In this document: piece by piece, positions 11,961 through 47,530 of the stretch
Layout of the letters: every line of letters starts with the position of its first letter
Position numbering within the stretch: the stretch's first letter is position 1
NCBI GenBank assembly: GCA_963978545.1
Contig: OZ021727.1
Location: 50,969,487-51,033,486, forward strand
Reading direction: 5' to 3'
DNA from: Linyphia triangularis
Lineage: Eukaryota > Arthropoda > Arachnida > Araneae > Linyphiidae
DNA: 64,000 bases
The notes under the pieces: generated by a model
The model's database searches: none
What the model saw: only the letters and a program-made list of their open reading frames with translations
What the model was told of the DNA's origin: nothing
Translations under genes and position numbers: made by a program

Positions 11961-11966
11961 AACGGA
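11961..11966. repeat. 6-bp target site duplication of the outer palindrome, left copy (AACGGA)
   Basis: AACGGA abuts the left end AGTAGTTAG and is repeated at 40191-40196 immediately after the right end CTAACTACT. Confidence 0.93.
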
Positions 11967-13829: not shown

Positions 13830-15110
13830 AAAAAAGTAACATACTTAAACTCTTTACGACAAATAACTTTAAAATTAACGAAAAAAAACTTACTTTACAC
13901 ATAAAAATCACTTTAAAATGTGTAAAAATATCGCTAAATAAGAGAAAAAAAGGAACTTACTTAAAATTTCTAAGATAAATATTTAACCTTTACGCGAAAA
14001 TTCCCTTCATGTATAAAAATCACGACTTTAAAATATAACATGCAAGAGAAAAGTAACGTACTTAAACTTTCTACGACAAATAACTTTAACATTAACGTAA
14101 AATTTTACTTTACACATAAAAATCCCGATATTAAAATATGTAGAAATATCGCTAAATAAAAGAAAAAAAAGTAACACACTTAAACTTTGTACGACAAATA
14201 ACTTTGACATTAACGTAAAAAATGTTCTTCACATATAAAAATCACGACTTTAAATTTGAAATGTAGGATGAAAGTATAACATACCTATAATTTCTACGAC
14301 AAAGAATTAAACATTGCCGTTCATGTCTTTAAAATGTATAATGACAACTCTAACTTTTAGAAAAAAGAAACACTAAAAATTTACAAGGCAAAGAATTTAA
14401 AATTGAACGTTAAAATTAACTTTACATGTACTATCATACTCTTATATCAACGATAAATAAGATAAAAAAAGAAACTCTAAAAATTTATAAGGCAAAGAAT
14501 TCAAATAATACGCGAAAATTTACCTCACATATAAAAATTATGTCTTTCAAATGTGTAAGAATAACGCTAAATTAGAGAAAAAGAAATATTAAAAATTTAT
14601 AAGGTAAGGAATTGAAACAATACGCGAAAATTTATTTCACACATAACATTTTTATCTTTAAAATGTGTAAGAATAATGCTAAATTAGAGAAGAAAAAAAA
14701 ATAACATACTTAAACTTTCTTCGACAACAATTTAAACAATACGCGAAAATTTCATACACAATTATTTTCTTAGGTTAATGTTAACTAATGGGAAATTTAA
14801 CAGAATAAAAATTTCAAAGATAAAGAATTTTAACCTTTACACGAAAATTTACTTCACATATAAATATCATGTCTTTAAACTTTAACGTGACAATTTACTT
14901 CTCATATACAATTAAACTCTTAGGTTAATGTTAAATAAAAGAAAAAGTAACATACTCAAAAATTTCTAAGATAAGCATAACGTAAAAATTTCATATCATG
15001 TGTTTAAAATGTAACATATAAGAGAAAAAAAATAACATACTTGAACTTTCTATAGCAAAGAATTTAAGCGTTAGCGTAAAAATTTACTTTACATATAAAA
15101 TTCACGTCTT
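13830..15110. repeat. Degenerate tandem array, outer left arm
   Basis: Units of about 100-120 bp recur, each with a TACTTAAA-CTTTCTACGACAAA segment, an ACGTAAAA-TTTACTT-CACATAAAAATCA segment and a GCTAAATAAGAGAAAAAAAG segment. Successive starts near 14060, 14179 and 14281 show the period. The same array occurs at 22470-23389 plus 37349-37829, 24680-26470 and 34268-36058. Short ORFs in it are by-products of the repeat. Confidence 0.8.
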
Positions 15111-15124
15111 TAAACGGGATGATA

Positions 15125-15372
15125 AGCATGTGACGGTAATTAGCCAATCAGGTTAGCGGTAGGTGATACGCCACTTGCCGGCATTTTTATACCGGAGGAT
15201 GAGTCACGCTAAAACTTGTTCAAACAGGTCGGGAGACTTGTACAGCAAGAACAACAGCATCGACGCGCAAGCAGCGGGTGATGCTGCGGTGTGTCAGCAG
15301 GTCTTCGAGATTATCGTTTTCCTACTTTTCCTTTTTCATAATGAAATGTTTGTGAAAACTTGGAATGAATGA
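15125..15372 (+). promoter_or_regulatory. GC-richer island with CCAAT and TATA-like motifs and a 57-codon ORF, outer left arm
   Basis: A short GC-richer stretch in an AT-rich arm. In order: a CCAATCAG box at 15144-15151, a TTTTTATACC motif at about 15185, and an ATG at 15199 opening 57 codons to TGA 15370-15372. The order and spacing fit a polymerase II promoter facing the palindrome centre. The predicted peptide (N-terminal MSHAKT, a hydrophobic stretch IIVFLL near the end) matches no family I know. Four copies exist in the window; inner and outer versions differ at 5 of 57 residues with no stop or frameshift. It may be a small gene, a noncoding RNA or a conserved structural element. Confidence 0.45.
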
Positions 15373-18300: not shown

Positions 18301-18539
18301 GATTGAATTTCTAATGCTAATTCCAATAGTATTTCATGTAACTTCAACTTGAAAAATAAATGTATGTTTAAGTTATAAAACTTGTCGTATGTTTGAAAAA
18401 TTGTAACTTTTCGTCTTATTCGTATAAATCGATAACTTATACCACTAGTTCTTCATCAATTAATCTCCTAAGTAAATCTTTCAAAGGTAAAAACATACTT
18501 ATAGCTTTGTCTTTGTAACATGTTAAATTTTACATGTTT
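15373..18539. repeat. Inner part of the outer element's left arm
   Basis: AT-rich sequence mirrored almost base for base at 18604-22212, except that about 440 bp present in the right arm (roughly 18785-19230) is missing on the left near 18350. No recognisable gene. Frames at 16543-16794 (-) and 17708-17986 (+) recur in every arm because the DNA is repeated; they are not convincing genes. Confidence 0.75.
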
Positions 18540-18603
18540 CTCGTGAAATTAATATTTTATATGTTTTCCATGAAAATATATAAAATTTTGTAACTTTCAC
18601 ATG
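18540..18603. other. 64-nt central loop of the outer palindrome
   Basis: Unpaired spacer between arm ends ...TACATGTTT (18539) and AAACATGTA... (18604). Apart from four substitutions it is the reverse complement of the inner element's 64-nt loop at 30337-30400, so the two loops lie in opposite orientation. Confidence 0.85.
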
Positions 18604-21600
18604 AAACATGTAAAATTTAACATGTTACAAAGACAAAGCTATAAGTATGTTTTTACCTTTGAAAGATTTACTTAGGAGATTAATTGATGAAGAACTAGTG
18701 GTATAAGTTATCGATTTATACGAATAAGACGAAAAGTTACAATTTTTCAATACATACGACAAGTTTTATAACTTAAACATACATTTATTGAAGTGAATAA
18801 ATTTTCGTATTTAAATATATATATATTGACTTGAAAACATTCTTTGATATATATATAAAAAAAACTTTAAGTTTAAATTGAAATTTTTATAAGTTTTTCA
18901 ACAGCGACTTATTAATATTTAGAAAGAGGTCGGATATCTTCAACTATTCTACACCTGATTGGACAACACTTATAATGTGTATGAGAAAAAAAATTCAATT
19001 ACTAGATGAGAAAAATTTTCTTGTAGGAATCAATGAAATTGGATAGTTATACTTTGGTTCGAAGCAATTTTCGTTTCAAGCATATGATTTGTTGCGAAGT
19101 TGAAATAAATACACTTTAAATCAATGCTTAGTATCTTTTCTTTTATTCTTACTATGATCATTCTTATATTGAAGGATGATTTTTTTGAAAGTCAATATAT
19201 TTGAAAAATAAATATATCTATAGTGTAACATATCAAGTTGAAGTTACATGAAATACTATTGGAATTAGCATTAGAAATTCAATCAATCAATTTATTCATG
19301 GGATATTGACCATCAAGTGAATATCTCCCCGCAACTTTGGTTGCTCTTATCGGCATATGATTACGCATGTTTCGTGATCTTAACGTATGTCAATGTGTTA
19401 TTTTTTTATATGTGAAAAAAAGGAAACTTTTCCACATATATTGATAATTATCATGTTTATTCAGTTTGTCGTTGTTTTTCATGTTATTCAGTTTGATACC
19501 GAGATGACATAATATAAATTGTTTAATGTGCTATAGTTTTAATATATGTGTTCCCACTTAAAAGCATGTTTGATTTTAAAATTTGTTTAAACTTTCTCCT
19601 AAAAATTTTTGTAGCGAACCTCAGCGCATTTTTTTTTCCTGATAAAGTACTTCGAAACATTCACATCTTTCAATGTTGTATTTTCTATATTTCCAGTAAA
19701 ACTTCTCACATTATACATGAATTTCAAGAAATTTGCTATGTCTAAGTTTGGTATTTTTTTTTTAATGTATAGATATTTCATCATTGTCATTCTATGATAA
19801 GATATCAAGTTGGTTCTTAATAAGAAAGAGTGTATTTTCTTGTCATAAGCAAGAAAAACGAAGTTAATATAAGTCAATGATAATTCTCATTTACGAATTT
19901 CTTGTAGTCTTCAACTTTTTTTCAACACATTTCACTCAACTTCTATTTTCACTTCATCTATCACTTTGTCATACTTCTTTACAGTTATAGTATGTATCAG
20001 TTCAAGTCACTGTTTAAATTTACATCATTGATTTATTCAGTTCACTCAATCTCTTAGGTCATAATAATTTCATTAAATTTATATGATTCATAAAAAAAAC
20101 CTACTCATTACACATGAACTTAATTTTATTGCACTGGGAAGAAAAACTATAGAAATTTGGACAATAAAAATCTATTACAACAGCTAATAAACTCAATTTT
20201 CAACAAGCATGATAGGATTTAAAAATTGTATTTTTTCGTTTTTCTGCTAAAGTTTAAGTTCTCTGTTAGACAATAAAACGTTTGCCTAGAATAAAATCAT
20301 AAATTATTCATCATTTATGTACCAACAGTAAAATTATCATTTACATTTTTGTAGATTTTTCTTTTTAACATGACAATGTTTTACATGTAAAGTTTATTTA
20401 ATAGTAATTTCCGACTTGAAAATGTAGAGACCATTTATTTTCGATGAGTTTGATTTCAACTGATAAATATATTTCAACATTCGAAGCATATGCGAGTTAT
20501 GTGAATAAACCATATGCAACTTAGCTAAATTTCAGTATTAAGTTGTGAAGTTTTATCTTTGCCCTAGAAAATATATTTATTTTTACTGATTTTTGTTAAG
20601 TGCTACGAGGATCTTTTACAAAGTATGTCTTCTTGTAACATGAGAAAAGATGCGAAATGATAAGGACTTTTCTGGTATGCTTTCAATTCCTTGAGAAATA
20701 AATTTAGCTTAACTAGAAGACTTGTTCCGATTCTGAAGTGTGCTATTTCCTATCGTAATTTATAATTTTACATGATACTTGGTTTAAAAGTTGAAAAAGT
20801 TTGCACAAATTTCCTATGTAAGTTATTCTACTTCACTTAAAAGTTATCGGTCACAAGCAATAAAAATTCCACTTTGTGTGACTAATGTTATGCATGTGTT
20901 AATTATCATGTGTAGTATCAGTTTTATTTGTGTCTTTCGAAAGCAAGCATTCATAAATTTAAAAGGATATTTCAAATTATTTTCAAAATATAAGTATCTT
21001 TTACATGTTTTTTCCGGAATGAACTTTGCTCAGTTATATTAATATTGAATATTCATCTTACAAAATAAGCGTCTTGTAAAACACATTCCGTTTCAGTTTT
21101 CTGAAATTTATGTATAAGTTATTTAGAAATTATGGGTGGAAGTTAAAAATCTCTATATTAATGATATATTGTCAGCACCTCTCAAATAAAAAAAAAAATT
21201 CATGTATAATTTAGTTTGTCCAGATGGTGTTCAATTTTACGTAGTAACAAACTCTACATTTTCCAAATTTATGCTAGTTTTTCACAAGAAAAAAAAAATA
21301 TTCTTTAAGTTTGCCTAGCAAACTTTTTTCAGTATTTAAATTTTCTAAGTATATTCCATCACATGAGTAGTTAACTATTTCCACTAAGGAAAATATCTTA
21401 TTATTTTAGTTTGTTTGATTGATGTTAGATTTTTATGTTTCTGATTGGGGATTTGCATATACAGTTTTAAAAACTTTACACAATTCGTAACATATATGTT
21501 AGAAATAATAGTATATCGCATCTGAGATTGAAAAAATTTATAACTATTATCATGTAAAGAAGGTTAAATTTTAAAAACGTGTCTTTGAATATGAGTGTTA

Positions 21601-22212
21601 CCATGAAAAAAGTTAACTAAATTACTTGTGATTTCCTTTCAGAGTATAAAAAGTTATATAGTTTACATATAATTCGCAAGTTTCTTTCAATTTATCTTAA
21701 GATGTTTTAAAAGTCTTGCAGGTGATTTTCAAAACTTAAATGCATATCTACAATGTATTTAATATCTACAATTTATTTAATATTTTCCCCCAATTCACCT
21801 TTCTTAGATAAGTAAAATAAACCTTAGTCAGCATGTATTGCACGAGTTAATACGACACCTTAACGTATATTATTACAAAGTAAATTGTCTAAGTCTTTCT
21901 TGAAGTAACATAAATTTCCAACTTGCATTGATTTTCCGATTGAAAAGTAGAGGTGAATTTTTTTCCTTGGAGTATCTATAACTAGTATTTATTTTAAATC
22001 TCTTACTATTTTTCTTCTATGTAACAATTTTGTTAAGTTTTACCCGTATTGTAGCATATAATCTCACTGAGTTTGAACAATATTCAATGTTTTAGACAAT
22101 AGAAAAGTTTTCAAGTAGAAATGATCTTAAATTCTCCAAGTGAATCATACTTTTTGGAAGAAAGTCCATGCGAATTCTACCTTCACTTACTAATGTGTCT
22201 TTGAAATCCACT

Positions 22213-22460
22213 TCATTCATTCCAAGTTTTCACAAACATTTCATTATGAAAAAGGAAAAGTAGGAAAACGATAATCTCGAAGACCTGCTGACACACCGCA
22301 GCATCACCCGCTGCTTGCGCGTCGATGCTGTTGTTCTTGCTGTACAAGTCTCCCGACCTGTTTGAACAAGTTTTAGCGTGACTCATCCTCCGGTATAAAA
22401 ATGCCGGCAAGTGGCGTATCACCTACCGCTAACCTGATTGGCTAATTACCGTCACATGCT
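22213..22460 (-). promoter_or_regulatory. GC-richer island and 57-codon ORF, outer right arm copy
   Basis: Reverse-strand copy of the island at 15125-15372, with the CCAAT box near 22434-22441 and the same peptide frame (stop near 22213). The predicted residues are identical to the left-arm copy. Confidence 0.45.
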
Positions 22461-23389
22461 TATCATCCCGTTTAAAGACGTGAATTTTATATGTAAAGTA
22501 AATTTTTACGCTAACGCTTAAATTCTTTGCTATAGAAAGTTCAAGTATGTTATTTTTTTTTTCTCTCATATGTTACATTTTAAACACATGATATGAAATT
22601 TTTACGTTATGCATATCTTAGAAATTTTTGAGTATGTTACTTTTTCTTTTATTTAACATTAACCTAAGAGTTTAATTGTATATGAGAAGTAAATTGTCAC
22701 GTTAAAGTTTAAAGACATGATATTTATATGTGAAGTAAATTTTCGTGTAAAGGTTAAAATTCTTTATCTTTGAAATTTTTATTCTGTTAAATTTCCCATT
22801 ATTTAACATTAACCTATGAAAATAATTGTGCATGAAATTTTCGCGTATTGTTTAAATTGTTGTCGAAGAAAGTTTAAGTATGTTATTTTTTTTTTTCTTC
22901 TCTAATTTAGCATTATTCTTACACATTTTAAAGATAAAAATGTTATGTGTGAAATAAATTTTCGCGTATTGTTTCAATTCCTTACCTTATAAATTTTTAA
23001 TATTTCTTTTTCTCTAATTTAGCGTTATTCTTACACATTTGAAAGACATAATTTTTATATGTGAGGTAAATTTTCGCGTATTATTTGAATTCTTTGCCTT
23101 ATAAATTTTTAGAGTTTCTTTTTTTATCTTATTTATCGTTGATATAAGAGTATGATAGTACATATAAAGTTAATTTTAACGTTCAATTTTAAATTCTTTG
23201 CCTTGTAAATTTTTAGTGTTTCTTTTTTCTAAAAGTTAGAGTTGTCATTATACATTTTAAAGACATGAACGGCAATGTTTGAATTCTTTGTCGTAGAAAT
23301 TATAGGTATGTCATACTTTCATCCTACATTTCAAATTTAAAGTCGTGATTTTTATATGTGAAGAACATTTTTTACGTTAATGTCAAAGT

Positions 23390-23395
23390 TATTTG
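23390..23395. repeat. 6-bp target site duplication of the inner palindrome, left copy (TATTTG)
   Basis: TATTTG directly precedes AGTAGTTAG and recurs at 37343-37348 right after CTAACTACT. The uninterrupted sequence is seen in the outer element's other arm near 14190-14200. Confidence 0.93.
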
Positions 23396-23770
23396 AGTAG
23401 TTAGAAAGTGGGGCTCCGGGGCCATGGAGCGACCGAGCGACGGTATGGTATGGGGGCGTGGTTATGACGTCACCGGAAGGGGCGTGACCGGGTATGACGT
23501 CACCGGAAATCACGTGACAGGAAGTGGAGTGGAGTTGTTTCCTTCCTGCTGCTGTTTTAGTTTCGGTTTCATTATAAGCTGTTTATGTATGACGTCACAG
23601 TAGGTATGACGTCATAATTTGTTTTATATCAAAGTTTTGAGCGGTGGCAACACTTTTTAGTGTCGATTTACCTTTCAGACGGAGTTGAGTTGTTCTAGGG
23701 CTGCTTATAAATGAATAAGTTAGAGTGATAGGAATTTTTACTAATGACGTCACAGTGGGTATGGCGTCAT
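23396..23770 (+). promoter_or_regulatory. Octamer-rich left terminus of the inner palindrome
   Basis: Five TGACGTCA octamers (23464, 23494, 23590, 23607, 23746) with CCGGAAG and CACGTG motifs. The mirror is 36968-37342. The very tip is GC-rich (GGGGCTCCGGGGCC). Confidence 0.7.
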
Positions 23771-24660
23771 TCTATGTTAAGATTTACGTTTTAAGTGGTG
23801 ATAACATTGGATATATACCAAATTTAGTTTTCAGGTGTTGGCAACGAGTTCTGATCGGTCAGCTAAATGCTCGCTTGTGACTGATAAGTTTTAAACATGT
23901 GACCAAAAGTTAACTCCTGATTGACTGTTTGGTTTTCTAGCGAGTTACTTACATATCCTTTAATCAAGTTAAAATACCTGCAACAAAGTTACACAAATAA
24001 AAATGTTAAATTTGAAAAGTTAATAAAAGGAAGGCCATTTGCTAAGGGTCTAAAGAACCCTAACCCCGAGCTACACGTGACATTTCAATATTTTACCAAA
24101 CAATTGTTAAAATATCGACTATCGGACGTTGCCTTCATGGTAACTCATCTACCCACCCCCCTTCCCTAACTAATTTTGAATAAGTTAAGACTTTAGAATT
24201 ACAATTAATAAATATAACTGTGAATAACTACACAAGTACGAACAAAATCGCGATGAGAAAAAAAAAAACACGAAGTATTAAACACGTCTTTCACACTCAG
24301 GTATCTAAGTAGAAATGGCGAGACGGCAACCGGTAGCGTCTATATATGAAGGGTGATCACGTGACTTCACCGACCAATCAGGTTTCACGGTAGAGGGTGC
24401 TACTGACTATCGACCCGTCAGAAGGGAGGGGAGCGAGACTAGGAATGTTTCAACACGCTTCAACGCGTTTGCGAGTTGAGTTGTTGTGTAACGATCTTGC
24501 TTGAAACAGTTAAAGTGATAGATAATTTTTTCGTGACGTCATAGTGTAGCGAATGGGTTTTTAGAGTAGACAGTTGTTGCAATTGGAGTAATTATGAAAT
24601 TTATTAAATATAAAGATAATATTTAGTAATAATTATCAGATTTTATTATTATTATTATAA
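23771..24660. other. Inner-specific subterminal module with an outward promoter-like segment
   Basis: About 0.9 kb mirrored at 36078-36967 and replaced by different sequence in the outer element. On the minus strand here a CCAAT box (CTGATTGG reading, near 24374-24382), a CACGTGATC site and TATATAGA (near 24345) are ordered as a promoter firing toward the element end; the mirror at 36355-36410 fires rightward. One more TGACGTCA is at 24534. The 82-codon frame at 23921-24169 (and 36569-36817 on -) starts well but resembles no known protein. Confidence 0.5.
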
Positions 24661-24679
24661 AAAATAAACTTATAAAAAA

Positions 24680-26470
24680 AAGTGAACGTGAAAATTTACT
24701 TTACGAATAAAAATCATGTCTTTAAAATGTGTACGAATATCACTAAATAAGAGAAAAAAGTAACAAACTTAAACTCTTTAAAATAAATAACTTTAACATT
24801 AACGTAAAAAATTTACTTTTCACATAAAAATCACTTTAAAATGAGTAAAAATATCGCTAAATAAGAGAAAAAAGTAACTTACTTAAAATTTCTAAGATAA
24901 ATATTTAACCTTTACTCGAAAATTCCCTTCATATATAAAAATCACGACTTTAAAATATGACATGCAAGAGAAAAGTAACGTACTTAAACTTTCTACGACA
25001 AATAACTTTAACATTAACGTAACATTTTACTTTACACATAAAAATCCTGACTTTAAAATATGTAGAAATATCGCTAAATAAAAGAAGAAAAAAAAAAAGT
25101 AACATACTTAAACTTTGTACGACAAATAACTTTGGCATTAACGTAAAAAATTTTCTTCACATATAAAAATCACGACTTTAAAATGTGACGTGTAAGAAGA
25201 ATTAGCATACTTAAAATTTCTACGACAAATAAATTTAACCTTTACGCGAAAATTTACTATATACATAAAAATCATGTCTTTAAAATATATAAAAATATTG
25301 CTAAATAAAAGAAAAAAAACTAACATACTTAAACTTTGCACGACAAATAACTTTAGCATTAACGTAAAAATTTACTTCACATATAAAAATCACGACATTA
25401 AAATGTGACATGTAAGAAGAATTAGCATACTTAAAATTTCTACGATAAATAATTTTAACATTTGAGTGAAAATTTACTACATATATAAAAATCATGTATT
25501 TAAAATATCGCTGAATAAAAGAAAAAAGTAACATACTTAAACTTTCTACGACAAATAACTTTAACATTAACGCAAAAATTTACTTTACACATAAAAATCA
25601 CGACTTTAAATTTGACATGCAGGATTAAAGTATAACATACCTATAATTTCTACGACAAAGAATTCAAACATTGCCATTCATGTCTTTAAAATGTATAATG
25701 ACAACTCTAACTTTTAGAAAAAAGAAACACTAAAAATTTACAAGGCAAAGAATTTAAAATTGAACGTGAAAATTAACTTCACATGTACAATCATACTCTT
25801 ATATCAACGATAAATAAGATAAAAAAGAAGCTCTAAAAATTTATAAGGCAAATAATTTAAATAATACGCGAAAATTTACCACACATATAAAAATTATGTC
25901 TTTCAAATGTGTAAGAATAACGCTAAATTAGAGAAAAAGAAATACTAAAAATTTATAAGGTAAGGAATTGAAACAATATGCGAAAATTTATTTTACGCAT
26001 AAAATTTTTATCTTTAAAATGTGTAAGAATAATGCTAAATTAGAGAAGAAAAAAAAATAACATACTTAAACTTTCTTCGACAACAATTTAAACAATACGC
26101 GACATTTTCATACACAATTATTTTCTTAGGTTAATGTTAAATAATGGGAAATTTAACAGAATAAAAATTTCAAAGATAAAGAATTTTAACCTTTACACGA
26201 AAATTTACCTCACAAAAATATCATATCCTTAAACTTTAACGTGACAATTTACTCTTCATATACAATTAAACTCTTAGGTTAATGTTAAATAAGAAAAAAA
26301 ATAATATACTTAAAATTTCTAAGATAAACATAACGTAAAAATTTCGTATCATGTGTTTAAAATGTAACATATAAGAGAAAAAAAAACTAACATACTTGAA
26401 CTTTCTATAGCAAAGAATTTAAGCATTAGCGTAAAAATTCACTTTACATATAAAATTCACATCTTTAAAT
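24680..26470. repeat. Tandem array, inner left arm
   Basis: Same 100-120-bp units as in the outer arms, with more copies than the outer left arm (about 1.8 kb). Repeated frames such as 24950-25138, 25138-25359 and 25301-25567 on the minus strand are consecutive units read in the same phase. Confidence 0.8.
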
Positions 26471-26479
26471 GGGAAGATA

Positions 26480-26727
26480 AGCAGGTGACGGTAATTAGCC
26501 AATCAGGGTAGCGGTAGGTGATACGCCATTCGCCGGCATTTTTAGATCGGAGGATGAGTCACGCTAAAACTTGCTGGAACAGGTCGGGAGATTTGTACAG
26601 CAAGAACAACAGCATCGACGCGCAAGCAGCGGGTGATGCTGTGATGTGTCAGCAGGTCTTTGAGATTATCGTTTTCCTACTTTGCCGTTTTCATAATGAA
26701 ATGTTTGTGAAAACTTGGAATGAATAA
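26480..26727 (+). promoter_or_regulatory. GC-richer island and 57-codon ORF, inner left arm
   Basis: Counterpart of 15125-15372 with the CCAATCAG box near 26499 and ATG near 26554. The TATA-like motif of the outer copy is changed here (TTTTTAGATC), and the peptide differs from the outer version at five positions. Confidence 0.45.
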
Positions 26728-29700
26728 AGTGGATTTCAAAGACATATTAGTAAGTGAAGGTAGAATTCGCATGGACTTTCTTCCAAAAAGTATGATTCAC
26801 TTGGAGAATTTAAGATCATTTCTACTTGAAAACTTTTCTATTATTTAAAACATTGAATATTGTTCAAACTCAGTGGGATTATATGCTACAATACGGGTAA
26901 AACTTAACAAAATTGTTACATAGAAGAAAAATAGTAAGAGATTTAAAATAAATATTAGTTATAGATACTCCAAAGAAAAAATTTCACCTCTACTTTTCAA
27001 TCGGAAAATCAATACAAGTTGGAAATTTATGTTACTTCAAGAAAGACTTAGACAATTTACTTTGTAATAATATACGTTAAGGTGTCGTATTAACTCGTGC
27101 AATACATGCTGACTAAGGTTTATTTTACTTGAAAGGTGAATTGGGGGAAAATATTAAATAAATTGTAGATATTAAATACATTGTAGATATGCATTCAAGT
27201 TTTGAAAATCACCTGCAAGACTTTTAAAACATCTTAAGATAAATTGAAAGAAACTTTTTATACTCTGAAAGGAAATCACAAGTAATTTAGTTAACTTTTT
27301 TCATGGTAACACTCATATTCAACGACATGTTTTTAAAATTTAACCTTCTTTACATGATAATAGTTATAAATTTTTTCAATCTCAGATGCGATATACTATT
27401 ATTTCTAACATATATGTTACGAATTGTGTAAAGTTTTTAAAAGAGTATATGCAAATCACCAATCAGAAACATAAAAATCTAACATCAATCAAACACACTA
27501 AAATAATAAGATATTTTCCTTAGTGGAAATAGTTAACTACTCATGTGATGGAATGTACTTAGAAAATTTAAATACTGAAAAAAGTTTGCTAGGCAAACTT
27601 AAAGAATATATTTTTTTTTTCTTGTGAAAAACTAGCATAAATTTGAAAAATATAGAGTTTGTTACTACGTAAAATTGAACATCATCTGGACAAACTAAAT
27701 TATACATGAATTTTTTTTTTATTTGAGAGGTGCTGACAATATATCATTAATACAGAGATTTCTAACTTCCACCCATAATTTCTAAATAACTTATACATAA
27801 ATTTCAGAAAACTGAAACGGAATGTGTTTTACAAGACGCTTATTTTGTAAGATGAATATTCAATATTAATATAACTGAGCAAAGTTCATTACGGAAAAAA
27901 CTTGTAAAAGATACTTATATTTTGAAAATAGTTTGAAATATCCTTTTAAATTTATGAATGCTCGCTTTCGAAAGACACAAATAAAACTGATATTACACAT
28001 GATAATTAACACATGCATAACATTAATCAAACAAAGTGGAATTTTTATTGCTTGTGACCGATAACTTTTCAGTGAAGTAGAACTTACATAGGAAATTTGT
28101 GCAAACTTTTTCAACTTTTAAACCAAGTATTATATAAAATTATAAATTACGATAGGAAATAGCACACTTCAGAATCGGAACAAGTCTTCTAGTTAAGCTA
28201 AATTTATTTCTCAAGGAATTGAAAGCATACCAGACAAGTCCTTATCATTTCGCATCTTTTCTCATGTTGCAAGAAGACATACTTTGTAAAAGATCGTCGA
28301 TGCACTTAACAAAAATCAGTAAAAATAAATGTATTTTCTATGGCAAAGATAAAACTTCACAACTTAATTACTGAAATTTAGCTAAGTTGCATATGGTTTA
28401 TTCACATAACTCGCATATGCTTCGAATGTTGAAATATATTTGTCAGTTGAAATCAAACTCATCGAAAATAAATGCTACCTACATTTTCAAGTCGGAAATT
28501 ACTATTAAATAAACTTTACATGTAAAACATTGTCATGTTAAAAAGAAAAATCTACAAAAATGTAAATGATAATTTTACTGTTGGTACATAAATGATGAAT
28601 AATTTATGATTTTATTCTAGGCAAACGTTTTATTGTCTAACAGAGAACTTAAACTTTAGCAGAAAAATAAAAAAAATACAATTTTTATATCCTATCATGC
28701 TTGTCGAAAATTGAATTTATTAGCTGTTGTAATAGATTTTTATTGTCCAAATTTCTATAGTTTTTCTTCCCGGTGCAATAAAATTAAGTTCATGTGTAAT
28801 TATTAGGTTTTTTTTTTTTTTTTATGAATCTTATAAATTTAATGAAATTATTATGACCTAAGAGATTGAGTGAACTGAATAAATCAATGATGTAAATTTA
28901 AACAGTGACTTGAACTGATACATACTATAACTGTAAAGAAGTATGACAAAGTGATAGATGAAGTAAAAATAGAAGTTGAATGAAATGTGTTGAAAAAAGT
29001 TGAAGACGACAAGAAATTCGTAATTGAGAATTATCATTGACTTATATTAACTTCGTTTTTCTTGCTTATGACAAGAAAATACACTCTTTCTTATTAAGAA
29101 CCAACTTGATATATTATCATAGAATGACAATGATGAAATATCTATACATTAAAAAAAAAAAAAAAAATACCAAACTTAGACATAGCAAATTTCTTGAAAT
29201 TCATGTATAATGCGAGAAGTTTTACTGGAAATATAGAAGATACAACATTGAAAGATGTGAATGTTTCGAAGTACTTTATCAGAAATAAAAAAAAAAAAAA
29301 TGCGCTGAGATTCGCTATAAAAAATTTTAGGAGAAAGTTTAAACAAAATTTAAAATCAAACATGCTTTTAAATGGGAACACAAATATTAAAACTATAGCA
29401 CATTAAACAATTTATATTACGTCATCTCAGTTGTATCAAACTGAATAACATGAAAAACAACCACAAACTGAATAAACATGAAAATTATCAATATATGTGG
29501 AAAAGTTTCCTTTTTTCACATATAAAAAAAAATAACACATTGACGTACGTTAAGATCACGAAACATGCATAATCATATACCGATAAGAGCAACCAATGTT
29601 GCGGGGAGATATTCACATGATGGTCAATATCCCATGAATAAGTTGATTGATTGAATTTATAATGCTAATTCCAATAGTATTCCACGTAACTTCAACTTCA

Positions 29701-30336
29701 TATGTTACACTATAGATATATTTATTTTTCAAATATATTGACTTTCGAAAAATCATCCTTCAATACAAGAATGATAATAGTAAGAATAAAAGAAAAGATA
29801 CTAAGCATTGATTTAAAGTGTATTTATTTCAACTTCGCAACAAATCATATGCTTGAAACGAAAATTGCTTCGAACCAAAGTATAACCATCCAATTTCATT
29901 GATTCCTACAAGGACATTTTTCTCATCTAGTAATTGAATTTTTTTTTTTCTCATACACATTATAAGTGATGTCCAATCAGGTGTAGAATAGTTGAAGATA
30001 TCCGACCTCTTTCTAAATATTAATAAGTCACTGTTGAAAAACTTATAAAAATTTCAAGTTACACTTAAAGTTTTTTTTTTTTTTATATATATATTTCAAA
30101 GAATTTTTTCAAATCAATATGTATATTTAAATACTGAAACTTATTCACTTCAATAAATGTATGTTTAAGTTATAAAACTCTTCGTATGTATTGAAAAATT
30201 GTAACTTTTCGTCTTCTTCGTATAAATCGATAACATATACACTAGTTCTTCATCAATTAATCTTCTAAGTAAATCTTTCAAAGCTAAAAACATACTTATA
30301 GCTTTGCATTTGTAACATGTTAAATTGTACATGTTT
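26728..30336. repeat. Inner part of the inner element's left arm
   Basis: AT-rich, mirrored at 30401-34010. It lacks a 27-bp segment near 27256 and a 6-bp segment near 27130 that both arms of the outer element carry. No convincing gene. Confidence 0.8.
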
Positions 30337-30400
30337 CATGTGAAAGTTACAAAATTTCAGATATTTTCATGGAAAACATATAAAATTTTAATTTCACGAG
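30337..30400. other. 64-nt central loop of the inner palindrome
   Basis: Spacer between TGTACATGTTT (ending 30336) and AAACATGTACA (from 30401). Same length as the outer loop and opposite in orientation. Confidence 0.88.
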
Positions 30401-33400
30401 AAACATGTACAATTTAACATGTTACAAATGCAAAGCTATAAGTATGTTTTTAGCTTTGAAAGATTTACTTAGAAGATTAATTGATGAAGAACTAGTGTAT
30501 AAGTTATCGATTTATACGAAGAAGACGAAAAGTTACAATTTTTCAATACATACGAAGAGTTTTATAACTTAAACATACATTTATTGAAGTGAATAAGTTT
30601 CAGTATTTAAATATACATATTGATTTGAAAAAATTCTTTGAAATATATATATAAAAAAAAAAAAAAAACTTTAAGTGTAACTTGAAATTTTTATAAGTTT
30701 TTCAACAGTGACTTATTAATATTTAGAAAGAGGTCGGATATCTTCAACTATTCTACACCTGATTGGACATCACTTATAATGTGTATGAGAAAAAAAAAAA
30801 TTCAATTACTAGATGAGAAAAATGTCCTTGTAGGAATCAATGAAATTGGATGGTTATACTTTGGTTCGAAGCAATTTTCGTTTCAAGCATATGATTTGTT
30901 GCGAAGTTGAAATAAATACACTTTAAATCAATGCTTAGTATCTTTTCTTTTATTCTTACTATTATCATTCTTGTATTGAAGGATGATTTTTCGAAAGTCA
31001 ATATATTTGAAAAATAAATATATCTATAGTGTAACATATGAAGTTGAAGTTACGTGGAATACTATTGGAATTAGCATTATAAATTCAATCAATCAACTTA
31101 TTCATGGGATATTGACCATCATGTGAATATCTCCCCGCAACATTGGTTGCTCTTATCGGTATATGATTATGCATGTTTCGTGATCTTAACGTACGTCAAT
31201 GTGTTATTTTTTTTTATATGTGAAAAAAGGAAACTTTTCCACATATATTGATAATTTTCATGTTTATTCAGTTTGTGGTTGTTTTTCATGTTATTCAGTT
31301 TGATACAACTGAGATGACGTAATATAAATTGTTTAATGTGCTATAGTTTTAATATTTGTGTTCCCATTTAAAAGCATGTTTGATTTTAAATTTTGTTTAA
31401 ACTTTCTCCTAAAATTTTTTATAGCGAATCTCAGCGCATTTTTTTTTTTTTTATTTCTGATAAAGTACTTCGAAACATTCACATCTTTCAATGTTGTATC
31501 TTCTATATTTCCAGTAAAACTTCTCGCATTATACATGAATTTCAAGAAATTTGCTATGTCTAAGTTTGGTATTTTTTTTTTTTTTTTAATGTATAGATAT
31601 TTCATCATTGTCATTCTATGATAATATATCAAGTTGGTTCTTAATAAGAAAGAGTGTATTTTCTTGTCATAAGCAAGAAAAACGAAGTTAATATAAGTCA
31701 ATGATAATTCTCAATTACGAATTTCTTGTCGTCTTCAACTTTTTTCAACACATTTCATTCAACTTCTATTTTTACTTCATCTATCACTTTGTCATACTTC
31801 TTTACAGTTATAGTATGTATCAGTTCAAGTCACTGTTTAAATTTACATCATTGATTTATTCAGTTCACTCAATCTCTTAGGTCATAATAATTTCATTAAA
31901 TTTATAAGATTCATAAAAAAAAAAAAAAAACCTAATAATTACACATGAACTTAATTTTATTGCACCGGGAAGAAAAACTATAGAAATTTGGACAATAAAA
32001 ATCTATTACAACAGCTAATAAATTCAATTTTCGACAAGCATGATAGGATATAAAAATTGTATTTTTTTTATTTTTCTGCTAAAGTTTAAGTTCTCTGTTA
32101 GACAATAAAACGTTTGCCTAGAATAAAATCATAAATTATTCATCATTTATGTACCAACAGTAAAATTATCATTTACATTTTTGTAGATTTTTCTTTTTAA
32201 CATGACAATGTTTTACATGTAAAGTTTATTTAATAGTAATTTCCGACTTGAAAATGTAGGTAGCATTTATTTTCGATTAGTTTGATTTCAACTGACAAAT
32301 ATATTTCAACATTCGAAGCATATGCGAGTTATGTGAATAAACCATATGCAACTTAGCTAAATTTCAGTAATTAAGTTGTGAAGTTTTATCTTTGCCATAG
32401 AAAATACATTTATTTTTACTGATTTTTGTTAAGTGCATCGACGATCTTTTACAAAGTATGTCTTCTTGCAACATGAGAAAAGATGCGAAATGATAAGGAC
32501 TTGTCTGGTATGCTTTCAATTCCTTGAGAAATAAATTTAGCTTAACTAGAAGACTTGTTCCGATTCTGAAGTGTGCTATTTCCTATCGTAATTTATAATT
32601 TTATATAATACTTGGTTTAAAAGTTGAAAAAGTTTGCACAAATTTCCTATGTAAGTTCTACTTCACTGAAAAGTTATCGGTCACAAGCAATAAAAATTCC
32701 ACTTTGTTTGATTAATGTTATGCATGTGTTAATTATCATGTGTAATATCAGTTTTATTTGTGTCTTTCGAAAGCGAGCATTCATAAATTTAAAAGGATAT
32801 TTCAAACTATTTTCAAAATATAAGTATCTTTTACAAGTTTTTTCCGTAATGAACTTTGCTCAGTTATATTAATATTGAATATTCATCTTACAAAATAAGC
32901 GTCTTGTAAAACACATTCCGTTTCAGTTTTCTGAAATTTATGTATAAGTTATTTAGAAATTATGGGTGGAAGTTAGAAATCTCTGTATTAATGATATATT
33001 GTCAGCACCTCTCAAATAAAAAAAAAATTCATGTATAATTTAGTTTGTCCAGATGATGTTCAATTTTACGTAGTAACAAACTCTATATTTTTCAAATTTA
33101 TGCTAGTTTTTCACAAGAAAAAAAAAATATATTCTTTAAGTTTGCCTAGCAAACTTTTTTCAGTATTTAAATTTTCTAAGTACATTCCATCACATGAGTA
33201 GTTAACTATTTCCACTAAGGAAAATATCTTATTATTTTAGTGTGTTTGATTGATGTTAGATTTTTATGTTTCTGATTGGTGATTTGCATATACTCTTTTA
33301 AAAACTTTACACAATTCGTAACATATATGTTAGAAATAATAGTATATCGCATCTGAGATTGAAAAAATTTATAACTATTATCATGTAAAGAAGGTTAAAT

Positions 33401-36400
33401 TTTAAAAACATGTCGTTGAATATGAGTGTTACCATGAAAAAAGTTAACTAAATTACTTGTGATTTCCTTTCAGAGTATAAAAAGTTTCTTTCAATTTATC
33501 TTAAGATGTTTTAAAAGTCTTGCAGGTGATTTTCAAAACTTGAATGCATATCTACAATGTATTTAATATCTACAATTTATTTAATATTTTCCCCCAATTC
33601 ACCTTTCAAGTAAAATAAACCTTAGTCAGCATGTATTGCACGAGTTAATACGACACCTTAACGTATATTATTACAAAGTAAATTGTCTAAGTCTTTCTTG
33701 AAGTAACATAAATTTCCAACTTGTATTGATTTTCCGATTGAAAAGTAGAGGTGAAATTTTTTCTTTGGAGTATCTATAACTAATATTTATTTTAAATCTC
33801 TTACTATTTTTCTTCTATGTAACAATTTTGTTAAGTTTTACCCGTATTGTAGCATATAATCCCACTGAGTTTGAACAATATTCAATGTTTTAAATAATAG
33901 AAAAGTTTTCAAGTAGAAATGATCTTAAATTCTCCAAGTGAATCATACTTTTTGGAAGAAAGTCCATGCGAATTCTACCTTCACTTACTAATATGTCTTT
34001 GAAATCCACTTTATTCATTCCAAGTTTTCACAAACATTTCATTATGAAAACGGCAAAGTAGGAAAACGATAATCTCAAAGACCTGCTGACACATCACAGC
34101 ATCACCCGCTGCTTGCGCGTCGATGCTGTTGTTCTTGCTGTACAAATCTCCCGACCTGTTCCAGCAAGTTTTAGCGTGACTCATCCTCCGATCTAAAAAT
34201 GCCGGCGAATGGCGTATCACCTACCGCTACCCTGATTGGCTAATTACCGTCACCTGCTTATCTTCCCATTTAAAGATGTGAATTTTATATGTAAAGTGAA
34301 TTTTTACGCTAATGCTTAAATTCTTTGCTATAGAAAGTTCAAGTATGTTAGTTTTTTTTTCTCTTATATGTTACATTTTAAACACATGATACGAAATTTT
34401 TACGTTATGTTTATCTTAGAAATTTTAAGTATATTATTTTTTTTCTTATTTAACATTAACCTAAGAGTTTAATTGTATATGAAGAGTAAATTGTCACGTT
34501 AAAGTTTAAGGATATGATATTTTTGTGAGGTAAATTTTCGTGTAAAGGTTAAAATTCTTTATCTTTGAAATTTTTATTCTGTTAAATTTCCCATTATTTA
34601 ACATTAACCTAAGAAAATAATTGTGTATGAAAATGTCGCGTATTGTTTAAATTGTTGTCGAAGAAAGTTTAAGTATGTTATTTTTTTTTCTTCTCTAATT
34701 TAGCATTATTCTTACACATTTTAAAGATAAAAATTTTATGCGTAAAATAAATTTTCGCATATTGTTTCAATTCCTTACCTTATAAATTTTTAGTATTTCT
34801 TTTTCTCTAATTTAGCGTTATTCTTACACATTTGAAAGACATAATTTTTATATGTGTGGTAAATTTTCGCGTATTATTTAAATTATTTGCCTTATAAATT
34901 TTTAGAGCTTCTTTTTTATCTTATTTATCGTTGATATAAGAGTATGATTGTACATGTGAAGTTAATTTTCACGTTCAATTTTAAATTCTTTGCCTTGTAA
35001 ATTTTTAGTGTTTCTTTTTTCTAAAAGTTAGAGTTGTCATTATACATTTTAAAGACATGAATGGCAATGTTTGAATTCTTTGTCGTAGAAATTATAGGTA
35101 TGTTATACTTTAATCCTGCATGTCAAATTTAAAGTCGTGATTTTTATGTGTAAAGTAAATTTTTGCGTTAATGTTAAAGTTATTTGTCGTAGAAAGTTTA
35201 AGTATGTTACTTTTTTCTTTTATTCAGCGATATTTTAAATACATGATTTTTATATATGTAGTAAATTTTCACTCAAATGTTAAAATTATTTATCGTAGAA
35301 ATTTTAAGTATGCTAATTCTTCTTACATGTCACATTTTAATGTCGTGATTTTTATATGTGAAGTAAATTTTTACGTTAATGCTAAAGTTATTTGTCGTGC
35401 AAAGTTTAAGTATGTTAGTTTTTTTTCTTTTATTTAGCAATATTTTTATATATTTTAAAGACATGATTTTTATGTATATAGTAAATTTTCGCGTAAAGGT
35501 TAAATTTATTTGTCGTAGAAATTTTAAGTATGCTAATTCTTCTTACACGTCACATTTTAAAGTCGTGATTTTTATATGTGAAGAAAAATTTTTACGTTAA
35601 TGCCAAAGTTATTTGTCGTACAAAGTTTAAGTATGTTACTTTTTTTTTTTCTTCTTTTATTTAGCGATATTTCTACATATTTTAAAGTCAGGATTTTTAT
35701 GTGTAAAGTAAAATGTTACGTTAATGTTAAAGTTATTTGTCGTAGAAAGTTTAAGTACGTTACTTTTCTCTTGCATGTCATATTTTAAAGTCGTGATTTT
35801 TATATATGAAGGGAATTTTCGAGTAAAGGTTAAATATTTATCTTAGAAATTTTAAGTAAGTTACTTTTTTCTCTTATTTAGCGATATTTTTACTCATTTT
35901 AAAGTGATTTTTATGTGAAAAGTAAATTTTTTACGTTAATGTTAAAGTTATTTATTTTAAAGAGTTTAAGTTTGTTACTTTTTTCTCTTATTTAGTGATA
36001 TTCGTACACATTTTAAAGACATGATTTTTATTCGTAAAGTAAATTTTCACGTTCACTTTTTTTTATAAGTTTATTTTTTATAATAATAATAATAAAATCT
36101 GATAATTATTACTAAATATTATCTTTATATTTAATAAATTTCATAATTACTCCAATTGCAACAACTGTCTACGCTAAAAACCCATTCGCTACACTATGAC
36201 GTCACGAAAAAATTATCTATCACTTTAACTGTTTCAAGCAAGATCGTTACACAACAACTCAACTCGCAAACGCGTTGAAGCGTGTTGAAACATTCCTAGT
36301 CTCGCTCCCCTCCCTTCTGACGGGTCGATAGTCAGTAGCACCCTCTACCGTGAAACCTGATTGGTCGGTGAAGTCACGTGATCACCCTTCATATATAGAC

Positions 36401-37342
36401 GCTACCGGTTGCCGTCTCGCCATTTCTACTTAGATACCTGAGTGTGAAAGACGTGTTTAATACTTCGTGTTTTTTTTTTTCTCATCGCGATTTTGTTCGT
36501 ACTTGTGTAGTTATTCACAGTTATATTTATTAATTGTAATTCTAAAGTCTTAACTTATTCAAAATTAGTTAGGGAAGGGGGGTGGGTAGATGAGTTACCA
36601 TGAAGGCAACGTCCGATAGTCGATATTTTAACAATTGTTTGGTAAAATATTGAAATGTCACGTGTAGCTCGGGGTTAGGGTTCTTTAGACCCTTAGCAAA
36701 TGGCCTTCCTTTTATTAACTTTTCAAATTTAACATTTTTATTTGTGTAACTTTGTTGCAGGTATTTTAACTTGATTAAAGGATATGTAAGTAACTCGCTA
36801 GAAAACCAAACAGTCAATCAGGAGTTAACTTTTGGTCACATGTTTAAAACTTATCAGTCACAAGCGAGCATTTAGCTGACCGATCAGAACTCGTTGCCAA
36901 CACCTGAAAACTAAATTTGGTATATATCCAATGTTATCACCACTTAAAACGTAAATCTTAACATAGAATGACGCCATACCCACTGTGACGTCATTAGTAA
37001 AAATTCCTATCACTCTAACTTATTCATTTATAAGCAGCCCTAGAACAACTCAACTCCGTCTGAAAGGTAAATCGACACTAAAAAGTGTTGCCACCGCTCA
37101 AAACTTTGATATAAAACAAATTATGACGTCATACCTACTGTGACGTCATACATAAACAGCTTATAATGAAACCGAAACTAAAACAGCAGCAGGAAGGAAA
37201 CAACTCCACTCCACTTCCTGTCACGTGATTTCCGGTGACGTCATACCCGGTCACGCCCCTTCCGGTGACGTCATAACCACGCCCCCATACCATACCGTCG
37301 CTCGGTCGCTCCATGGCCCCGGAGCCCCACTTTCTAACTACT
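30401..37342. repeat. Right arm of the inner palindrome
   Basis: Inverted copy of 23396-30336. It contains the island and 57-codon ORF on the minus strand (34011-34258), the unit array (34268-36058), the inner-specific module (36078-36967) and the octamer-rich terminus (36968-37342). Confidence 0.9.
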
Positions 37343-37348
37343 TATTTG
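37343..37348. repeat. 6-bp target site duplication of the inner palindrome, right copy (TATTTG)
   Basis: Second copy of the duplication at 23390-23395; the outer element's array unit resumes directly after it. Confidence 0.93.
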
Positions 37349-39098
37349 TCGTACAAAGTTTAAGTGTGTTACTTTTTTTCTTTTATTTAGCGATATTTCT
37401 ACATATTTTAATATCGGGATTTTTATGTGTAAAGTAAAATTTTACGTTAATGTTAAAGTTATTTGTCGTAGAAAGTTTAAGTACGTTACTTTTCTCTTGC
37501 ATGTTATATTTTAAAGTCGTGATTTTTATACATGAAGGGAATTTTCGCGTAAAGGTTAAATATTTATCTTAGAAATTTTAAGTAAGTTACTTTTTTTCTC
37601 TTATTTAGCGATATTTTTACACATTTTAAAGTGATTTTTATGTGTAAAGTAAGTTTTTTTTCGTTAATTTTAAAGTTATTTGTCGTAAAGAGTTTAAGTA
37701 TGTTACTTTTTTCTCTTATTTAGTGATATTCGTACACATTTTAAAGACATGATATTTATTCGTAAAGTAAATTTTCATGTTCACTTTTGAATTCTTAGTT
37801 GTAAGATGTTCAAGTATGTTACTTTTTCTCTCTTATTTAAACATTAGAGTATCAAAATCAGTTATCACATATCTATTCAGCATTAGCAGCTAGTTCTGTG
37901 TTGCCATTCATCAACTTAAGTAAGTATCATTGTACAATAAAAACTATCTTGATTAATATAACTAACATAGACATATTAATTTCTAACAAGTTGAATGGTA
38001 ATATAAATTTTAACATAGACAGTAAGTAGCTAAGATATATAATATCGCTCGCATAGTACAGTATAGATTTAAATTACAACCGGTTGTAACAAATAGAATC
38101 AATTTCAAAGTATTTGAAGGTTGATATATCGAAAAGTTGCGTATTTCCATCTCTTGGAAAACATTGTTCTGACTAAAATGAAATGTTTTTCCTAAACCAT
38201 TCTGAAAGAAGAAGAAAAAAAATATAAATTCTTCAATAAAATATGGATAATACATTTAAAATTTACAAAATTGAGAATAATACTTACATAAATAAAATAA
38301 AAAATCGTCATTTTTCTATTCAAAGTGATAAATATTTCGTTTTTTGGAAATGTATATTACTAATATTGTATTGCAAACTCACGTGTGAACACACTACAAC
38401 TACTAATTCCTTCAACAGGGTCAGACTAACTCAACCTAAAAATAATTGTAAAATCATTGCTTTAACTTCCATAATGGGTTTCAGTTGCTGAATATTGAAA
38501 ATTAATTCTAGTCTAAGTTCTTTTGTTGTGTATTCAATCCCTCAAAAACTATGACAATAAAAGAAAAAAACTTTTTAATGACATGTTAAGCTCTGTAAAA
38601 GAAATTTTCACGTTAAGATATCAAAGTTAAAAAAAAAATTTCTCATAAATTTTAATTTATATTTACATTTCATACTGTTATTGAGAAAATAATGAGACTT
38701 TATATGTCTAACATTGATTAAACCTGATTCCTTAAAAGTGTCTTGCGATTATATCTCTCAACATTAGTTTAAATGTGTTAAGCACTTATAGAAAAAAAAA
38801 TCCACTCAATCCGAAACTTTACGCATTTGTGTTAGTATATTATCTTTGCATGTATTTGAAGTTTTTAATGGTTAAGCATGAAAAGTTATAAACTATGTAA
38901 TTTATATTCCTTCCTACCACTAGATGGCGCCGCAATTACATTAAACTTAGTAGAAAACTGTCTTACTAAACTGTATAGTCAATGAGAATAGCATTTGAAA
39001 TCACGTGACATATTCTAACCAATCAGAAGTGAGCTTTTATTTCAACCAATCAAAGGAGACTTAGCTATATCAGGATACAAGATGTTGCCATTCCTTAA
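37349..39098. repeat. Outer element right arm, part after the inner insertion (array end and outer-specific module)
   Basis: Array units to about 37829, then the mirror of the 12561-13829 module. The array here carries one unit of about 120 bp (around 37720-37840) that is missing in the left arm near 13850 but present at the matching end of the inner element's array. Confidence 0.8.
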
Positions 39099-40190
39099 AC
39101 TTTGATATAAAGCAAATCGTGACGTCATCCCCACTACATTAACACTGTGACGTCACTGGTAAAACAGCCTATCACTCTAAGTTATTCACTTAAAAGTAGC
39201 CATTGAACAACTCAACTCCATCCCGCCTAAAACTTAGCATATTCCTACTGCTGCCATCGTCTTAAAAGTAAATTTTGTAAAATCATGAATGACGTCATAC
39301 CCACTGTGACGTCACTAGTCAAAAATACCTATAACTCTAACTTATTCACTTAGAAGCAGCCCTAGAACATCAACTCCGCCTGAAAGGTAAACCGAAACTA
39401 AAAAGTGTTGCCACTGCTCAAAACTTTGATATAAAACAAATTATGACGTCATACCCACTGTGACGTCACTAGTCAAAAAGCCTATAACTCTAAGTTATTC
39501 GTTTAGAAGCAGCCCTAGAACAACTCAACTTCCAGTGACGTCATCGTCCCCTCGACCCATTCCCCATCCCTCCTTAAAACTATATCAGGGTGTTGCCACA
39601 CTTGAAAAGTTAAACTTTAACATATTCTCTATGACGTCATTCCCACTGCATTCCCACAGTGATGTCATACAATTAGAGCCTATCACTATTACGTTTTCGT
39701 TTAGAGGCAGCATAAATACAACTCAACTCCACCTTAAATTTATGGCTCAAGATGTAAGGTGTTGCCATCTAACTATACTGTAACATAAAACAAGTTATGA
39801 CGTCATATCCACTGACGTCATACATAAAAAAAGCCTATCACTCTACTTATTCACTAAGAAGCAGTCCTAGAACAACTCAACTCCGTCTGCTAGATAAACC
39901 GAAACTAAAAAGTGTTGCCACCGCTCAAAACTTTGATATAAAACAAATTATGACGTCATACCCACTGTGACGTCATACACAAACAGCTTATAATGAAACC
40001 GAAACTAAAACAACAGCAGGAGGGGAACAACTCAACTCCACTTCCGGTCACGTGTCTTCCGGTCACGTCATATCCCGTGATGTCACTTCCTGTGACGTCA
40101 TATCCGGTCACGTCCACTTCCGGTGACGTCATCGTCCCTCGTCCCATCCCGCATCCCGCCATGGCCCCGGATCGGCATTTTCTAACTACT
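39099..40190 (-). promoter_or_regulatory. Right terminal block of the outer palindrome, expanded TGACGTCA modules
   Basis: Fourteen exact TGACGTCA octamers (39120, 39148, 39290, 39307, 39444, 39461, 39536, 39632, 39798, 39813, 39951, 39968, 40093, 40124) in about 1.1 kb. Repeated modules of roughly 150 bp are arranged head to tail; about 500 bp more than in the left terminus, so module number changed in one arm. Confidence 0.75.
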
Positions 40191-40196
40191 AACGGA
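40191..40196. repeat. 6-bp target site duplication of the outer palindrome, right copy (AACGGA)
   Basis: Second copy of 11961-11966, directly after CTAACTACT. Confidence 0.93.
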
Positions 40197-41143: not shown

Positions 41144-41174
41144 GTGCGAGGGCTTTCTTATATAGGAGGTGTTG
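41144..41174 (-). repeat. P-type transposon right terminal inverted repeat
   Basis: Complement of the left repeat at 11271-11301 with 3 mismatches in the last 7 bases; ends GGAGGTGTTG at 41174. Confidence 0.9.
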
Positions 41175-41181
41175 CTCTGTG
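41175..41181. repeat. 7-bp target site duplication of the P-type transposon, right copy (CTCTGTG)
   Basis: Matches 11264-11270. Confidence 0.93.
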
Positions 41182-47512: not shown

Positions 47513-47530
47513 AAGACCAAATTCAGGAAA

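Follow-up and report, generated by a model that had tools for sequence, protein, structure and literature searches.

Nested palindromic elements of about 14 kb with Maverick-like ends and no detected genes in the spider Linyphia triangularis

How can a transposable element without a coding core consist wholly of inverted-repeat arms? This question is raised by a locus of Linyphia triangularis (GCA_963978545.1, OZ021727.1, positions 50,969,487–51,033,486, forward strand), which was analysed as one window of 64,000 nt whose own coordinates are used throughout. A sequence-only reading had described an almost perfect 13.9-kb palindrome that behaves as a transposable element (E2, 23396–37342). That reading noted E2 alone and overlooked its nesting within an outer host element of the same family (E1, 11967–40190). 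The family is sampled here by few copies (n = 2).

Self-BLAST aligned E2 with its own reverse complement at 99.77% identity over its whole length, and global alignment of the two arms left nine differing columns, made up of four substitutions and three indels, the last of which sits at the edge of the centre. The near-perfect palindrome, the arm and loop lengths and the target-site duplication reported earlier were thereby reproduced (Table 1). The junctions read ...GTTATTTG / AGTAGTTAG...CTAACTACT / TATTTGTCG, with a 6-bp duplication, TATTTG, on both sides. Chance cannot account for a palindrome of this length; its unusual features are its size and an arm structure that takes up the entire element. 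The centre is itself a degenerate inverted repeat, whose halves agree at 27 of 39 columns. The sub-terminal region, with its G+C-rich tip, holds five TGACGTCA sites, compared with one in the remainder of the left half, and the tandem array of the left arm has its mirror image at ~35079–35986.

Table 1 Features of the two nested elements, in window coordinates
Feature	Position	Strand	Basis
E1, the older palindrome of the family, split by E2	11967..40190		
E1 target-site duplication, left copy AACGGA (6 bp)	11961..11966	+	
E1 target-site duplication, right copy AACGGA (6 bp)	40191..40196	+	
E1 left arm	11967..18352	+	
E1 centre and inner right arm	18353..23395	-	
E1 outer right arm, past E2	37349..40190	-	
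Conserved tip AGTAGTTAGAAARTGSSGMTCCGGGGCCA, E1 left end	11967..11995	+	tip scan
Conserved tip, E1 right end	40162..40190	-	tip scan
E1-only block, ~1.2 kb, no blastn match in E2; symmetric inside E1	12575..13819	+	
E2, complete palindromic element, 13,947 bp	23396..37342		self-BLAST, arm alignment
E2 target-site duplication, left copy TATTTG	23390..23395	+	
E2 target-site duplication, right copy TATTTG	37343..37348	+	
E2 left arm, 6942 bp	23396..30337	+	arm alignment
E2 centre, 64 nt	30338..30401		arm alignment
E2 right arm, 6941 bp	30402..37342	-	arm alignment
Conserved tip, E2 left end	23396..23424	+	tip scan
Conserved tip, E2 right end	37314..37342	-	tip scan
Sub-terminal region with repeated TGACGTCA sites	23396..24100	+	5 sites
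E2-only block, 883 bp, no blastn match in E1; symmetric inside E2	23796..24678	+	
Tandem array, units of ~103 to 220 bp, E2 left arm	24752..25659	+	

After removal of E2 and one copy of its duplication, E1 has a net length of 14,271 bp. Relative to E2, its left arm lacks ~450 bp adjoining the centre (E2 29699–30151), and the tip of its outer right arm carries ~0.5 kb of additional repeat copies. The symmetric part of its inner arm (19233–23395) matches the left arm at 4148 of 4163 columns. The empty site of E2 is kept in the opposite arm of E1, where 199 of 201 columns match around a single TATTTG; the family is therefore mobile, as the sequence-only reading had supposed from one copy, and two copies with two different 6-bp duplications bear this out. 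The centres of E1 and E2 agree at 60 of 65 columns in opposite orientation compared with 50 of 69 in the same orientation, so that both copies have the same asymmetry at the centre. Because E1 and E2 share this centre, are both palindromic and carry independent duplications, the sequences suggest that the palindrome itself has multiplied.

All four ends of E1 and E2 read AGTAGT...ACTACT, and the 6-bp duplications are perfect in both elements. AGTAGTTAGAAA is present at each of the four ends, and the 29-bp tip AGTAGTTAGAAARTGSSGMTCCGGGGCCA has four matches in the window compared with none in 100 shuffles. Outside the elements, AGTAGT was counted at 22 of 71,552 strand positions (~3 in 10,000). 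Vertebrate Mavericks have the end-motifs (AG)3//(CT)3 and (AGT)2//(ACT)2 with 6-bp duplications (PMC8097293); for Polinton, the characteristic duplication length is put at 6 bp (PMC10045372). E1 and E2 carry one of these motifs, which is six letters long and was reported for vertebrate Mavericks, at 4/4 ends, and the duplication length in 2/2 elements. Exact scans of IMG/VR, in which records of the own or very near genomes were possibly excluded, found the tip and the sub-terminal stretch at 0 places. These Maverick-like ends suggest a gene-less hitchhiker on Maverick (Polinton) virus-like transposons.

Consistent with the earlier claim of a missing coding core, Pfam gave nothing at cut-off in 21 ORFs of E1 and E2, namely 10 per left half, drawn from the 12 longest listed there, plus a 125-aa ORF in the right arm of E2. 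The PolB, integrase, ATPase, protease and capsid genes of Maverick/Polinton were therefore not found among these ORFs, and the element is not an autonomous Polinton. The longest stop-to-stop ORF in the E2 left half (6974 bp) has 92 aa, similar to the longest ORFs in 100 dinucleotide shuffles (median 91, 95th percentile 121, maximum 135 aa). The 125-aa ORF (31333–31710) exceeds the shuffle 95th percentile but lies below the maximum; Pfam gave it no match up to E = 1, and its left-arm counterpart is disrupted by a frameshift. ORFs of at least 50 aa numbered 27 in the E2 left half (shuffle mean 18.1) and 20 in the E1 left arm (shuffle mean 17.4), excesses that are without explanation. Rfam returned 0 matches at gathering score across the window.

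Comparison of the four arms showed how the two halves of each element change. In alignment columns 2900–7000, 134 differences between E1 and E2 are common to both arms, compared with 11 private to one arm (10 in one E1 arm and one in one E2 arm), indicating that the arms evolve together; indel patterns are symmetric between arms in 17 of 21 cases. The arms of the host copy E1 are the more diverged, at 10 of 4004 columns compared with 1 of 3995 for the inserted E2. Within E1, 14 of 1963 columns differ between the arms outside the E2 insertion point and 10 of 4080 inside it (Fisher p = 0.014, with tip columns 0–760 excluded, where repeat copies are misaligned in register); over the same column sets, the E2 arms differ at 2 of 1924 and 1 of 4070. 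A BLAST hit that made the E1 outer arms merely 93% alike was rejected, as the four-way alignment placed it out of register in repeats. In register, these arms are 97.2–100% alike in six 250-column windows (columns 750–2250), still more divergent than the inner arms. By this outer/inner contrast, conversion may be continuing in the chromosome after insertion, beyond a resetting at birth only, and ordinary chromosomal gene conversion between arms could be an alternative source of their identity.

Based on the match of the AGTAGT...ACTACT ends and 6-bp duplications to Maverick/Polinton, we propose a Maverick/Polinton helper for this family. In the reading that we favor, with a probability of roughly 0.6, E1 and E2 are non-autonomous 14-kb “all-TIR” DNA elements that Maverick machinery replicates and integrates and whose arms are matched by self-pairing. 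The helper would reside elsewhere in the spider genome and supply a protein-primed polymerase and a retroviral-type integrase; Mavericks were present in every arthropod that one survey investigated (PMC6327564). Terminal inverted repeats may have grown until they met, leaving the whole element as arm. A strand displaced during replication could then pair with itself from end to end, forming a hairpin that is looped at the 64-nt centre and has a duplex origin where it opens. Within this hairpin, either self-templated copying or the correction of mismatches would yield identical arms in each cycle, while the loop would escape correction because it is unpaired. After integration the arms would drift apart, and their divergence could therefore serve as an age clock, as LTR divergence does. 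The order given by such a clock fits the nesting, the host arms being more diverged than the inserted ones.

A tentative variant, which we consider possible but doubtful, treats the family as the gene-less satellite genome of a Maverick virus, with origins at both ends and a self-annealed full-length hairpin that would rewrite one arm from the other in each cycle. Its length would be kept near 14 kb because this is a replicable or packageable length. In this it would resemble, as an animal counterpart, the defective inverted-repeat genomes of the adenovirus type, from which it would differ in being vertically inherited and in transposing. Rather unlikely is a giant foldback or MITE-type element, moved by a cut-and-paste transposase that makes 6-bp duplications, while gene conversion in the chromosome keeps its arms alike. 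The foldback architecture of mainly long, internally repetitive inverted repeats is indeed present, as are tandem arrays in sub-terminal and internal positions; Galileo and Tm1 are known examples of non-coding foldbacks whose TIRs are internally repetitive, and the outer/inner contrast in E1 agrees with continuing conversion. However, the duplications are unlike those of Galileo (7 bp) and Tm1 (mostly 9 bp), IS3EU, likewise with 6 bp, ends in TA..TA, and (AGT)2//(ACT)2 with 6 bp is the Maverick combination.

A palindrome could arise naturally when one end of an element is duplicated in inverted form, and a tail-to-tail dimer, one of the refutations named by the sequence-only reading, is possible as the ancestral event; it would join two copies of an end of a coding element, Maverick or other. 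As an account of a palindrome at this single locus it is improbable: both copies are palindromic, with one common centre and independent duplications, and the 10 ORFs tested per left half and the longest right-arm ORF of E2 contained no coding remnant. Perfect long palindromes are also a known class of artefact, arising from read-through or an inverted join. The sequence-only reading had named an assembly artefact as its other refutation, and the two copies, their distinct duplications and the empty site in the opposite arm of E1 speak against it. The palindrome boundaries coincide exactly with the element tips and duplications, the arms are separated by substitutions and indels, and E1 carries an asymmetric central deletion and a nested copy, making an artefact extremely improbable.

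A cut-and-paste model by itself gives no reason for a gene-less element to keep a length of 14 kb and an almost perfect palindrome. If Maverick machinery is indeed the mover, the size and arm identity of these elements would record protein-primed replication, and possibly packaging, in readable form; Maverick particles have not been observed to date according to PMC8097293. The nest also gives a time order for two insertions, and opens the question of how a palindrome of such length persists in a chromosome.

The earlier statement that no described family has this structure was too strong, given the Maverick/Polinton-like ends and duplication length together with the published mention of non-autonomous Mavericks and the known architecture of non-coding foldbacks. 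In the open-licence literature, none of six phrases for a non-autonomous or derived Maverick/Polinton was found, one survey wording it otherwise; non-autonomous versions are mentioned in its introduction (PMC6327564). No open-licence text contained both AGTAGTTAG and “terminal inverted repeat”, and among the matches listed for palindrome or snapback transposons no such element was described. IS3EU has 6-bp duplications and TA..TA ends, and GingerRoot occasionally TG..CA (PMC10045372), compared with AG..CT in E1 and E2, which places them outside IS3EU. Galileo and other foldbacks of the P superfamily share long, internally repetitive inverted repeats and copies without a transposase gene. They differ in their 7-bp duplications, compared with 6 bp in 2/2 elements here, which sets E1 and E2 apart from Galileo/P-type foldbacks; the longest Galileo TIR pair in a D. 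mojavensis study is 1260/1241 bp at 95.2% identity. Tm1, a Mutator/foldback element of root-knot nematodes, has composite inverted repeats and non-coding copies as well, but its duplications are mostly 9 bp, one described element is 1080 bp and mean TIR identity is 93.15%. Maverick/Polinton elements share the 6-bp duplications and the AGTAGT//ACTACT ends, and the 13.9 and 14.3 kb of E2 and E1 lie inside the 12.7–24.6 kb range of intact vertebrate Mavericks (PMC8097293). E1 and E2 differ from them in having no detected genes and in their inverted repeats, which reach ~6.9 kb here compared with 46–1447 bp in intact vertebrate Mavericks (PMC8097293).

Self-alignment recovered the 13.9-kb palindrome that a sequence-only reading had proposed, here called E2, with arms of 6942 and 6941 bp separated by 64 nt. 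Aligned against each other, the arms show nine differing columns, made up of four substitutions plus three indels. The target-site duplication claimed by the same reading is likewise present, as TATTTG at both flanks. The sequence to the left and right of E2 is supplied by a single older element of the same family, E1, which is flanked on both sides by AACGGA and measures 14,271 bp once E2 and a single duplication copy are subtracted. This element, too, is a palindrome, with inner arms identical at 4148 of 4163 columns. E2 is inserted in the right arm of E1, within or adjoining a stretch of ~100- to 220-bp repeats, and the uninterrupted form of its site, with one TATTTG, is kept in the E1 left arm. 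When joined, the flanks of E2 (100 bp per side, minus one duplication) are identical to the E1 left arm at 199 of 201 columns. This empty site within the same window shows that E2 did not arise through an assembly inversion, and it is close to certain that a mobile palindromic family is present in the window.

Palindromic elements and neighboring features (window coordinates)
Feature	Position	Observation
902-aa open frame	4432-7137	Hydrophobic, membrane-spanning-like stretch near the start (by eye); no Pfam match at E 0.1
Short ORF	11673-11858	Immediately left of E1
E1	11967-40190	Split by E2
E1 tips	left starts 11967; right finishes 40190	Each is AGTAGTTAGAAAATGCC, read inward
E1-specific block	12575-13819	~1.2 kb, between tip and repeats; symmetric in E1; no blastn match in E2
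E1 central gap	18352/18353	
E2	23396-37342	
E2 left arm	23396-30337	
E2-specific block	23796-24678	883 bp, between tip and repeats; symmetric in E2; no blastn match across E1
E2 segment opposite the E1 gap	29699-30151	
E2 centre	30338-30401	
E2 right arm	30402-37342	
Broken retrotransposon pol	41166-43003	RVT_1, RNase H-like, sub-threshold integrase-core match; presumably Gypsy-like
Purple acid phosphatase (type 7)	44190-45524	
Mpv17/PMP22 family protein	47492-48124	
Tandem array, 29-bp unit	50756-50894	4.8 copies, 97% matches
Small palindrome, ~1.5 kb	52597-54052	Arm identity 78%
Tc1-type transposase fragment	59972-60538 (-)	HTH_Tnp_Tc3_2
Small palindrome, ~1.5 kb	61365-62912	Arm identity 86%; TA at both flanks

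Among the 120 matches listed for the purple acid phosphatase, the closest named full-length proteins by identity are those of Parasteatoda (89%, over 94% of the query) and Caerostris (85%, over 99%), and the top E-value belongs to an Actinostola record at 60% identity. A spider is accordingly the most probable source of the window. The two small palindromes are ~84% alike, with tips that we take to resemble Tc1/mariner ends. The short ORF beside E1 presumably resembles exon 1 of a gene encoding a THAP-domain protein, and E1 may therefore lie within or adjoining a gene.

The longest stop-to-stop ORFs in the left halves of E2 and E1 are 92 and 98 aa, respectively, against medians of 91 and 90 aa in 100 dinucleotide shuffles of these halves. 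ORFs of at least 50 aa number 27 in the E2 left half (shuffle mean, 18.1) and 20 in that of E1 (shuffle mean, 17.4), the latter scarcely any excess. A 125-aa ORF in the E2 right arm lies above the 95th percentile (121) and below the maximum (135) of the longest ORFs in left-half shuffles; its left-arm counterpart is broken by a frameshift, and a Pfam search with it returned no match at E up to 1. Pfam searches with 10 of the 12 longest listed ORFs per left half gave no match or sub-threshold ones (best E 0.02), and Rfam gave none at the gathering score.

Substitutions separate the arms of the host E1 at 10 of 4004 columns, versus 1 of 3995 in the inserted E2 (columns 2960-7000), the pattern predicted for arms that start out identical and diverge with time. 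Within E1, however, arm differences occur at 14 of 1963 columns outside the E2 insertion point versus 10 of 4080 inside it (p = 0.014, omitting tip columns 0-760, whose repeats align out of register); in the same columns, E2 shows 2 of 1924 and 1 of 4070. The contrast in E1 counts against a pure resetting of the arms at birth, and could arise from ongoing conversion in the still-contiguous part of the palindrome or from uneven mutation rates.

In a four-way arm alignment over columns 2900-7000 (79 gapped columns excluded), 3876 columns are identical, 134 split E1 from E2 in the same way in both arms, and 10 and 1 are private to one arm of E1 and of E2, respectively; indel patterns there are symmetric in 17 of 21. 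Given these shared differences and the symmetric element-specific blocks, each lineage's arms must have been copied from one another or made together since the divergence of E1 and E2. The centre breaks this symmetry (left and right halves identical at 27 of 39 columns), and its asymmetry is common to both elements, whose centres agree at 60 of 65 columns when placed in matching orientation versus 50 of 69 in the other. Homogenisation via a hairpin whose loop is unpaired, as in a putative replication mechanism for the family, would leave the centre asymmetric as seen.

Long palindromes are expected to decay by asymmetric central deletion. Relative to E2, ~450 bp is absent from one side of the E1 centre, and as a result a spacer of 880 nt separates the symmetric arms of E1. 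The right tip of E1 also has additional repeat copies totalling ~0.5 kb.

G+C content is 62% in the outermost 60 bp at the E2 left end, versus 28% across the E2 left half. TGACGTCA, presumably similar to ATF/CREB sites, has 5 occurrences at the E2 left tip, 8 at the E1 left tip and 10 at the E1 right tip. Elsewhere it appears once in the remainder of the E2 left half, is absent from the remainder of the E1 left arm, and has two occurrences across the 35.8 kb of the window that belong to neither element; it could be a promoter or origin element.

The pattern AGTAGTTAGAAARTGSSGMTCCGGGGCCA has four matches in the window, all of them ends of E1 and E2. In a vertebrate Maverick (Polinton) study (PMC8097293), elements were chosen by perfect 6-bp duplications together with (AG)3//(CT)3 and (AGT)2//(ACT)2 end-motifs, for which the authors cite Kapitonov and Jurka 2006. 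PMC10045372 gives 6 bp as the characteristic duplication length for Polinton, and TA..TA ends for IS3EU, which also has a 6-bp duplication. Mavericks are reported in every arthropod surveyed, with Parasteatoda among the chelicerates named, in PMC6327564. The ends, duplication length and size make a Maverick connection more probable than not. The E1/E2 family behaves like a non-autonomous Maverick and is not classed as Polinton, because the Polinton gene set was not found among the ORFs searched against Pfam. The end-motif reported for vertebrate Mavericks and the perfect 6-bp duplication are each present in two of two elements.
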